A stretch of DNA of 64,000 nucleotides, taken from the NCBI RefSeq assembly GCF_000473065.1, contig NZ_AXAZ01000045.1, positions 1 through 64,000 on the forward strand. Reading direction: 5' to 3'. The translations under genes and the position numbers were made by a program. Positions 8,307 to 11,384 of this stretch are shown one piece after another. Source of the stretch: Bradyrhizobium sp. WSM1743. GTDB lineage: Bacteria > Pseudomonadota > Alphaproteobacteria > Rhizobiales > Xanthobacteraceae. The first letter of the stretch is position 1; each line of letters opens with the position of its first letter. Below the pieces are notes generated by a model. It did not search any database and had not been told where the DNA came from. It saw nothing but the letters and a program-made list of their open reading frames with translations.

Positions 8307-11300
8307 ATGCCCAAGACATCGCCGAAGACCACCGCCAAAGCTGACACCAAGGCCGCGCCAAAAGCTGCCGAGACCAAGCCCGCTGCTGCGACAGCTGCTG
8401 CCAAACCGGTCGCGGCAAAGGCGGCCGGCAAGGGCGACCACATCTTCCTGGTCGACGGTTCCTCCTACATCTTCCGCGCCTATCACGCGCTGCCGCCGCT
8501 GAACCGCAAGTCCGATGGGCTCCAGGTCAATGCCGTGCTCGGCTTCTGCAACATGCTGTGGAAGCTCTTGCGCGAGATGCCGGAAGACAACCGGCCGACG
8601 CATCTGGCCATCGTCTTCGACAAGTCGGAGATCACCTTCCGCAACAAGATCTATCCGGACTACAAGGCGCACCGGCCGCCGGCCCCTGACGATCTGATTC
8701 CGCAATTCGCGCTGATCCGCGAGGCCGTCCGCGCTTTCGACCTGCCCTGCCTGGAACAGACCGGCTTCGAGGCCGACGATCTCATCGCGACCTATGTGCG
8801 GCAGGCTTGCGAGCGCGGCGCCAGCGCCACCATCGTGTCGTCCGACAAGGACCTGATGCAGCTCGTCACCGATTGCGTCACCATGTACGACACCATGAAG
8901 GACCGCCGCATCGGCATCCCCGAGGTGATCGAGAAGTTCGGCGTGCCGCCGCACAAGGTGGTCGAGGTGCAGGCTTTGGCCGGCGATTCCACCGACAACG
9001 TGCCCGGCGTCCCCGGCATCGGCGTCAAGACCGCGGCGCAGCTGATCACCGAATATGGCGATCTCGACCAGTTGTTGTTCCGCGCCGGCGAGATCAAGCA
9101 GCCCAAGCGGCGCGAGGCGCTGCTCGAGAACGCGGAGAAGGCGCGGATCTCGCGGCAGCTCGTGCTGCTCGACGACAAGGTCGATCTCGAGGTGCCGCTG
9201 GACGACCTCGCCGTCCACGAGCCCGACGCGCGCAAGCTGATCGCCTTCCTGAAGGCGATGGAGTTCACGACGCTGACGCGACGTGTCGCCGAATATTCGC
9301 AGATCGATCCTGCCAACGTCGATGCCGATCCCGGCTACGCAAAGGGTGCGAGCGTATTCTCGCCGCTGCCGCCCTCGGACGTCGTGCCCGCACCAGGGAC
9401 CGGCACACCGGCGCAGACCGCGCCGATCGAGCGCAACAAGTCGGCGGGCAAGGAGGACAAGGCTGCGAGCCCGAAGGGTGCGCCGATCTCGCTCGCCGCC
9501 GCGCGCGAAGAGGCGCTGCGCAAGCTTCCGGTCGATCGCAGCAAATACCAGACCATCAAGACGCTCAACGAGCTCGAGGCCTTCATCGCGCGCATCCATG
9601 ATGCCGGCCATGTCGCGATCGAGATGAGAGCCAACTCGATCGATCCGATGCAGGCCGATCTTTGCGGCATCGCGCTGGCACTGGCGCCGAACGAGGCCTG
9701 CTACGTGCCGCTGGCGCACAAGCAGTCCGGCGGCGGCGCCGGCCTGTTCGATGCCGGCCTCGCGCCGGACCAGGTCAAGCATGACGACGCGCTGCAAGCG
9801 CTGCGGGCGGTGCTGGAATCAGCCGGCATTCTCAAGATCGGCTTCGACGTCAAGTTCACCGCTGTGATGCTGGCGCAGCACGGCATCACGCTGCGCAACA
9901 TCGACGATGCGCTCCTGATCTCCTACGTGCTCGATGCCGGCCGCGGCTCGCATGCGCTGGAATCGCTGTCCGAGCGCTGGTTCGGCCATGCCATGCTGAA
10001 GGAAAACGAGCTGCTCGGCAGCGGCAAGGGCAAGATCACCTTCGACCAGGTGCCGATCGACAAGGCCGCACCGCTGTCGGCGGAAGCCGCCGACGTCGCC
10101 CTGCGCGTCTGGCGCGTGCTGAAGCCGCGCCTCGTCGCCGAGCACATGAGCGCGGTCTATGAGACCCTGGAACGGCCGCTGGTGTCGGTGCTCGCCCGCA
10201 TGGAGCGGCGCGGCATTTCGATCGACCGCCAGGTGCTGTCGCGCCTCTCCGGCGACTTTGCCCAGACCGCAGCGCGGGTCGAGGCCGAGATCCAGGAGAT
10301 CGCGGGCGAGCCGGTCAATGTCGGCAGCCCCAAGCAGATCGGCGACATCCTGTTCGGCAAGATGGGACTATCAGGCGGCACCAAGACCAAGACCGGCGCA
10401 TGGTCGACCACCGCCCAGGTACTGGACGAGCTCGCCGAGCAAGGCCACGCCTTCCCGAAGAAGATTTTGGAGTGGCGCCAGGTCTCCAAGCTGAAATCGA
10501 CCTACACCGACGCGTTGCCGACCTATGTCAATCCGCAGACCCATCGCGTGCACACCACCTACGCGCTGGCCGCGACCACGACGGGCCGGCTGTCGTCCAA
10601 CGAGCCGAACCTTCAGAACATTCCGGTGCGCACCGAGGATGGCCGCAAGATCCGCCGCGCCTTCGTCGCGACACCCGGGCACAAGCTGGTGTCAGCCGAT
10701 TATTCACAGATCGAGCTGCGGCTGCTCGCCGAGATCGCCGACATCCCCGTGCTGAAGCAGGCGTTCCGCGACGGGCTCGACATTCACGCCATGACCGCGT
10801 CGGAAATGTTCGGCGTGCCGATCAAGGGCATGCCGAGCGAGATCCGCCGCCGCGCCAAAGCGATCAATTTCGGCATCATCTACGGCATCTCGGCGTTCGG
10901 CCTCGCCAATCAGCTCGGCATCGCGCGCGAGGAGGCCTCCGCTTACATCAAGAAATATTTCGAGCGCTTCCCCGGCATCCGCGCCTACATGGACGAGACG
11001 CGCGACTTCTGCCGCAACCACGGCTACGTCACCACGCTGTTCGGCCGCAAGTGCCACTACCCCGACATCAAGGCCTCCAACGCCTCGGTGCGCGCCTTCA
11101 ACGAGCGCGCCGCGATCAACGCCCGGCTGCAGGGCACCGCCGCCGATATCATCCGCCGCGCCATGACGCGCGTGGAGGATGCGCTGGCCGCGAAGAAGCT
11201 GTCGGCGCAGATGCTGCTCCAGGTGCATGACGAACTGATCTTCGAGGTGCCGGACGACGAGGTCGAGGCGACGCTCCCCGTCGTGCAGCACGTGATGCAG

Positions 11301-11384
11301 GACGCGCCGTTCCCGGCCGTGCTGCTGTCAGTGCCGCTGCATGTCGATGCGCGCGCCGCGACCAATTGGGACGAGGCGCATTGA
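8307..11384 (+). CDS. polA: DNA polymerase I with degenerate proofreading domain
   Basis: A 1025-residue family A polymerase for Okazaki fragment maturation and repair. Residues 1-43 form an Ala/Lys/Pro-rich extension. The 5'-3' exonuclease domain follows (FLVDGSSYIFRAYHA, then SSDKDLMQLV and GDSTDNVPGVPGIG). The polymerase domain keeps motif A (VSADYSQIELRLLA), motif B (RRRAKAINFGIIYG) and motif C (QVHDELIFEV), so synthesis should be normal. The middle 3'-5' exonuclease domain keeps its fold but has lost its metal ligands: the positions of E. coli D355, E357, D424 and D501 are E439, R441, T518 and A594. The ATG at 8307 follows a repeat block. It is larger than the E. coli enzyme because of the N-terminal tail and an insert near residues 340-400. 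Confidence 0.96.
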   Translation: MPKTSPKTTAKADTKAAPKAAETKPAAATAAAKPVAAKAAGKGDHIFLVDGSSYIFRAYHALPPLNRKSDGLQVNAVLGFCNMLWKLLREMPEDNRPTHLAIVFDKSEITFRNKIYPDYKAHRPPAPDDLIPQFALIREAVRAFDLPCLEQTGFEADDLIATYVRQACERGASATIVSSDKDLMQLVTDCVTMYDTMKDRRIGIPEVIEKFGVPPHKVVEVQALAGDSTDNVPGVPGIGVKTAAQLITEYGDLDQLLFRAGEIKQPKRREALLENAEKARISRQLVLLDDKVDLEVPLDDLAVHEPDARKLIAFLKAMEFTTLTRRVAEYSQIDPANVDADPGYAKGASVFSPLPPSDVVPAPGTGTPAQTAPIERNKSAGKEDKAASPKGAPISLAAAREEALRKLPVDRSKYQTIKTLNELEAFIARIHDAGHVAIEMRANSIDPMQADLCGIALALAPNEACYVPLAHKQSGGGAGLFDAGLAPDQVKHDDALQALRAVLESAGILKIGFDVKFTAVMLAQHGITLRNIDDALLISYVLDAGRGSHALESLSERWFGHAMLKENELLGSGKGKITFDQVPIDKAAPLSAEAADVALRVWRVLKPRLVAEHMSAVYETLERPLVSVLARMERRGISIDRQVLSRLSGDFAQTAARVEAEIQEIAGEPVNVGSPKQIGDILFGKMGLSGGTKTKTGAWSTTAQVLDELAEQGHAFPKKILEWRQVSKLKSTYTDALPTYVNPQTHRVHTTYALAATTTGRLSSNEPNLQNIPVRTEDGRKIRRAFVATPGHKLVSADYSQIELRLLAEIADIPVLKQAFRDGLDIHAMTASEMFGVPIKGMPSEIRRRAKAINFGIIYGISAFGLANQLGIAREEASAYIKKYFERFPGIRAYMDETRDFCRNHGYVTTLFGRKCHYPDIKASNASVRAFNERAAINARLQGTAADIIRRAMTRVEDALAAKKLSAQMLLQVHDELIFEVPDDEVEATLPVVQHVMQDAPFPAVLLSVPLHVDARAATNWDEAH

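Follow-up and report, generated by a model that had tools for sequence, protein, structure and literature searches.

The polA gene in the window analysed here (the 64,000-nucleotide stretch at positions 1 to 64,000 of contig NZ_AXAZ01000045.1 of Bradyrhizobium sp. WSM1743) very probably encodes a normal three-domain orthologue of DNA polymerase I (Pol I) whose proofreading exonuclease would be catalytically dead, a loss that appears to be inherited, to be one of at least 20 separate losses and to stem, most likely, from weak selection in the order Hyphomicrobiales. Pol I enzymes with a dead proofreading site are already known, and the fine-grained, repeated loss within Hyphomicrobiales is the addition made here. 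In related work, polA of Rhizobium leguminosarum was reportedly described in 1999, and the family-A polymerases were reportedly reclassified in 2023. Among the best literature matches on Bradyrhizobium, Rhizobium, Mesorhizobium or independent losses, the same finding was not found; the search extended neither to most subscription journals nor to the supplement of PMC12926913, in which some of the species may appear. According to the passages of that survey of PolA1 that bear on the exonuclease site (Timinskas et al. 2026, PMC12926913), about half of the bacterial orthologues have a substituted site, in a largely phylum-specific manner, and Pol I proofreading "might often be dispensable". The window PolA resembles the inactivated-DEDDy orthologues described there in having the same kind of substituted site; however, while the section concerned names Firmicutes, Tenericutes, and Actinobacteria, the losses reported here are repeated and patchy within one alphaproteobacterial order.

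PolA (1025 aa; Table 1) is the single family-A polymerase match found in its own 8.34 Mb genome, and a second PolA is hence rejected. All three domains scored above the Pfam cut-offs in a single chain (DNA_pol_A_exo1 with an E-value of 7.5e-15), the protein scored 1170.5 against the NCBIfam model PRK05755 (cut-off 720), and its closest named loci are those of Bradyrhizobium vignae (97% identity) and of B. yuanmingense and B. japonicum (both 96%), which places the host in this genus or very near it. An AlphaFold2 model of the protein (mean pLDDT 88.4) has the Klenow fold; pLDDT values in the blocks of the exonuclease domain are mostly above 90, with the exception of one loop, and the best structural match of the whole model is Klenow (1KLN; Z 38.6, rmsd 3.5, 588 aligned residues). 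The model confidence and this match therefore argue for an exonuclease domain that is folded, as modelled, with its metal ligands absent. The Pol I large fragments of Bacillus and Taq, which carry a vestigial exonuclease domain, are also among the structural matches, but they rank below Klenow (Taq first in row 13, Bacillus named in row 19) and come from phyla distant from that of the host. By its domain set and its Klenow fold, the protein is a Pol I orthologue (PolA1). PolA2/APEX of Actinobacteria also has an inactive exonuclease domain, but is described in the relevant part of PMC12926913 as without a 5' nuclease and with a clamp motif in the exonuclease domain; this identity was rejected for the window PolA, in which the 5' nuclease is present and QxxLF is absent.

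Table 1. Positions, in the window, of polA, of the domains that it encodes and of the altered residues of the exonuclease site
Feature	Position	Strand	Basis
polA, DNA polymerase I, 1025 aa	8307-11384 (protein, 8307-11381)	+	Genome and profile searches
5'-3' nuclease (flap) domain, residues 46-308	8442-9230	+	Pfam PF02739 and PF01367
3'-5' exonuclease-like domain, residues 414-609, without its DEDDy site, fold retained (predicted)	9546-10133	+	Pfam PF01612, model
E439 (GAG), at Klenow metal ligand D355	9621-9623	+	Alignment, codon read
R441 (AGA), at Klenow metal ligand E357	9627-9629	+	Alignment, codon read
D514, at the N420 position	9846-9848	+	Alignment
T518 (ACC), at Klenow metal ligand D424	9858-9860	+	Alignment, codon read
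L590, at catalytic Y497	10074-10076	+	Alignment, codon read
A594 (GCC), at Klenow metal ligand D501	10086-10088	+	Alignment, codon read
Polymerase domain, residues 642-1023	10230-11375	+	Pfam PF00476, Klenow alignment

In a phmmer search, residues 413-1025 of the window PolA aligned to Klenow 1D9D (E 1.2e-163) with the three exonuclease motifs ungapped. E. coli PolA (locus L056) served as the reference for residue mapping; the metal-site comparison was thus made by sequence alignment, and the structure search yields no residue-by-residue pairs. Where an active DEDDy site has four carboxylates, the window PolA has E, R, T, and A; these substitutions and their coordinates, put forward in a preliminary description of this DNA, were confirmed by the alignment to Klenow and E. 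coli PolA and by direct reading of the codons. The catalytic tyrosine (Tyr 497), the loss of which that description did not include, is replaced as well, by L590. The same description had considered polymerase motifs A, B, and C and the 5'-3' nuclease to be intact, which is borne out by reading of the Klenow alignment and by the Pfam matches, such that the protein has what characterizes a proofreading-dead Pol I, i.e., a substituted DEDDy site in a retained domain together with the polymerase and the 5' nuclease. Klenow entries in the PDB alignments include the mutants 1KLN and 1D8Y, which carry a change at D355 alone or at D355 together with E357 and which we take to be exonuclease-deficient. 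A sequencing artefact was ruled out because the ligand changes are shared by genomes of the same genus; all six others are altered, five at all four ligands, while L008 (pattern DQNYI, in the order D355, E357, D424, Y497, D501) retains D355 only. When the 215 columns at 405-619 were ranked by the rise in variability from the 55 intact to the 72 broken members of the host's family, the top four were the four ligands, and chance is hence not at issue; other positions in and around the exonuclease motifs came next. The window PolA very probably lacks 3'-5' proofreading, and we strongly infer, from these alignments, that it has no exonuclease activity.

A retained, weak exonuclease would be conceivable if E439 and D514 rebuilt a metal site, as E439 is acidic and D514 adds a carboxylate to motif II. 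The two residues appear not to be conserved together, however: broken enzymes with E at 439 (n=42) have D at 514 in 13 cases and N in 23, and the equivalents of D424, D501, E357, and Y497 are all absent. We reject such a rebuilt site as extremely improbable. The preliminary description had also allowed for other acidic residues at the metal site; none seems to occupy it.

A close parallel is the Pol I of Helicobacter pylori (HP1470), which, according to the portions of PMC3121766 on this enzyme, lacks the equivalents of D355, D424, and D501, shows no 3'-5' exonuclease activity on mismatched primers and elongates such primers, with an active 5' nuclease and polymerase. The window PolA is likewise an orthologue that keeps the exonuclease domain and has lost these three ligands; E357 and Y497 are missing from it as well. 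While H. pylori is described in the same source as having no translesion polymerases, the genome of the window has three Y-family matches.

PolA was scored in E. coli and in 235 alphaproteobacterial genomes, comprising 127 from the host's family, 63 from the rest of the order (34 families) and 45 from the rest of the class (40 families). Under the strict rule used, a site counts as intact if the ligand positions hold D, E, D, and D, in that order, and as broken otherwise. Loci were picked by hand down listings of 147, 194, and 224 genomes with a match, with full-length matches favoured and family genomes with split or partial PolA matches mostly excluded, and the shares given here are non-random estimates. 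Rows dropped were L001 (a duplicate), second loci of one genome, L218 (a shortened frame with motif I missing) and a further four for which the tree column was already present or the title repeated. A broken PolA was found in 72 of the 127 genomes from the host's family, in 9 of the 63 from the rest of the order and in 1 of the 45 from the rest of the class. According to the preliminary description, the site is usually retained in close relatives among the alphaproteobacterial enzymes. This part of its interpretation was not supported, as the site is broken in all seven scored genomes of the host's genus and in every one of the 19 loci labelled Bradyrhizobium; of the 44 genera scored in the family, 24 are broken throughout, 16 are intact throughout and 4 are mixed. 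Its account of an inactive proofreading site in an otherwise intact enzyme was upheld. The site is retained in the wider class, being intact in 44 of 45 genomes outside the order and, within the order, in 54 of the 63 from families other than that of the host.

Named loci (n=80) were evenly divided, with 40 broken and 40 intact. Besides the loci labelled Bradyrhizobium, those of Rhodopseudomonas infernalis, of the Tardiphaga, and of 10 out of 11 Mesorhizobium are broken; intact loci include an Afipia MAG, all 9 Rhizobium, all 3 Agrobacterium, all 3 Brucella, the Bartonella, both Kaistia, and both Ancylobacter. Chelativorans and Pseudolabrys have one intact and one broken locus each. Two records carry titles that fit their PolA poorly. 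L260 (JAUEPE010000018.1), titled Frankia sp. RB7, has a PolA that is 88% identical to that of the window, has the same kind of broken site and nests within Bradyrhizobium in the tree, and the record looks mislabelled; L266 (WGNB01000051.1), a MAG titled Rhodopseudomonas sp. and perhaps mislabelled, has an intact site and 67% identity to the window PolA, unlike R. infernalis, in which PolA is broken and 79% identical. The extent of damage varies across the 119 broken enzymes, with one ligand changed in 16, two in 20, three in 38, and all four in 45; the 16 with a single changed ligand might retain some activity.

Mapping of ligand loss on a tree of PolA, as proposed in the preliminary description, was carried out with trees built without the exonuclease domain and gave 20 to 26 separate losses if loss is irreversible. 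For all 312 distinct PolA (193 intact, 119 broken), we obtained 23 changes by equal-cost parsimony, which cannot separate gain from loss, and 26 losses under irreversibility; for the family tree, the corresponding numbers were 13 and 16. Collapse of branches with support below 70 or below 90 left 22 or 20 losses, respectively, among all 312 PolA and 14 or 11 on the family tree. One of the 26 losses (L150) lies outside Hyphomicrobiales and all others lie inside. A single old loss spans 60 proteins, including all those labelled Bradyrhizobium, R. infernalis, and the Tardiphaga; the node uniting this Bradyrhizobium-Rhodopseudomonas loss has a support of 95 in the family tree and 73 in the larger tree, and on these trees the loss in the window would be older than the divergence between Bradyrhizobium and a set of genera with Rhodopseudomonas and Tardiphaga among them. 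L590 and A594 of the window PolA probably arose late, given that Y497 and D501 persist in several enzymes that are labelled Bradyrhizobium or are close to these (patterns EKNYD, EKGYD, and DKNYD). The Mesorhizobium loss is separate from that of Bradyrhizobium; within Mesorhizobium, the pattern DRDHD has no changed ligand in common with DEDYQ or DEDYH, and the genus was nevertheless counted as one loss.

Evolutionary rates, estimated by branch on a fixed family tree with the five catalytic columns excluded, changed with loss of the site. The ratio of exonuclease to polymerase rate was 1.27 on intact branches, 2.98 on loss branches and 2.22 after loss, i.e., relative to the polymerase domain, the exonuclease domain evolved 1.75 times faster after loss than in the intact state (permutation p 2e-4), while the 5' nuclease, used as a control on the same tree, showed no rise in rate after loss. 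The speed-up was 2.23-fold within 8 residues of a ligand and 1.6-fold at the 147 positions farther away. Pairwise comparisons agree, as the median exonuclease/polymerase ratio of dN was 3.37 in 17 broken genus groups and 2.03 in 20 intact ones (p 3e-6), and the shift had the same direction in the three mixed genera for which both intact and broken pairs were available. Exonuclease dN/dS, for which several groups consist of a single pair, ranged from 0.13 to 0.66 in broken groups (median 0.28) and was 0.20 in intact groups; with values below 1 in the broken groups, the domain is not a free pseudodomain. This pattern is the footprint of a site freed from selection within a structurally kept domain. 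Retained constraint of this kind would also be expected if the dead domain had acquired another function, e.g., in the holding of frayed primer ends or in contact with a partner, and the domain is indeed present in all 127 scored family members (rows without it were unscorable), N420D recurs, and the equivalents of K422, D362, and D503 are conserved in both states. Nevertheless, the drop in constraint extends to the 147 positions off the ligands, the listed conserved positions are shared with intact enzymes and thus reveal no newly conserved patch, and the window PolA is without a QxxLF clamp motif of the PolA2 kind; we give little credence to such a function.

Two observations fit relaxation less well and count against weak selection as the explanation. 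First, evolution was faster on loss branches than on branches after loss (exonuclease/polymerase, 2.98 vs 2.22, p 0.047; exonuclease/5' nuclease, p 0.011), a burst that exceeds the prediction of plain relaxation. Second, D at the N420 position occurs in 63 of 119 broken and in none of 193 intact enzymes. The tree holds 22 changes between N and D at this position, with one N420E and one N to S, although N to S is an A-to-G change as easy as N to D; drift alone does not explain this preference. N420D also accompanies lesions of a single ligand (e.g., DQDYD and KEDYD with D at 420) and could reflect either inactivation at an early stage or repacking of the emptied pocket. Together with the many convergent losses, the burst and N420D are in line with a selected loss, in which Pol I, by extending mismatched or damaged primer ends, provides a means of bypassing lesions or a useful degree of mutability, a proposal made for the Pol I of both H. 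pylori and B. subtilis; PMC3121766 describes such a bypass role for exo-minus Pol I, and PMC12926913 raises it. Against this, exonuclease dN/dS stays below 1, the ligand positions take many different residues afterwards, which fits a lost function better than a new one, and no link was found to Y-family copy number (Mann-Whitney p 0.12, with paired rows mostly equal) or to Ku, which occurs in 65 of the 72 broken and in 46 of the 55 intact genomes with no trend in paired tests, both comparisons having low power with 8 independent pairs on supported branches. We consider selection for loss possible, if unlikely, and it is doubtful that the losses in Hyphomicrobiales represent a repeatedly favoured switch with convergent routes sharing N420D and an exonuclease-domain burst on loss branches.

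With regard to the distribution of Ku (PF02735), the genome of the window has 11 matches, compared to at most 5 in every other family genome listed, and none of its listed matches is on the polA contig. In five of the six genomes of genus g20 (G019, G061, G083, G102, G119), the proofreading-dead polA is followed 0.2-1.1 kb downstream by a Ku gene on its own strand.

Proofreading could also be supplied to Pol I in trans by another 3'-5' exonuclease. Two further PF01612 proteins are present in the genome of the window, an RNase D-like protein of 382 aa and a 204-aa protein, in both of which the DEDDy residues appear intact on reading. However, the PF01612 count does not rise with loss; the number of matches is exactly three in 133 of the 149 genomes of the family, broken and intact alike, the identity of the three genes (PolA, RNase D-like, 204-aa) having been checked in the genome of the window only. 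Compensation by an extra PF01612 protein is rejected, as there is no gain with loss, and proofreading in trans in general seems improbable to us.

The likeliest cause of the losses would thus remain weak selection on Pol I proofreading in Hyphomicrobiales, where a first lesion at any ligand would be followed by decay of the rest of the site and the dead domain would be retained as a structural piece linking nuclease and polymerase. The 5'-flap nuclease and the polymerase would stay under strong selection and, as judged from knowledge of the family, carry out Okazaki-fragment processing and repair gap filling; a 3' mismatch would be extended, handed to another nuclease or left to mismatch repair. 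Crowding of the losses in one order also counts against this explanation, and a cause for it was not found. We attribute the loss to dispensability of Pol I proofreading with moderate confidence; a lower fidelity following from it is suggested more weakly, and more errors in repair or Okazaki filling are plausible.

Where losses are largely phylum-specific, it is hard to separate cause from effect in judging how far Pol I proofreading matters in the wild. With at least 20 separate losses, some of them within a genus and some affecting a single ligand, Hyphomicrobiales represent a natural experiment on the purpose of proofreading, and pairs of intact and broken enzymes such as those of Chelativorans multitrophicus and C. 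petroleitrophicus, or of Mesorhizobium composti and M. ciceri, allow direct tests of the consequences for mutation rate and strand bias.
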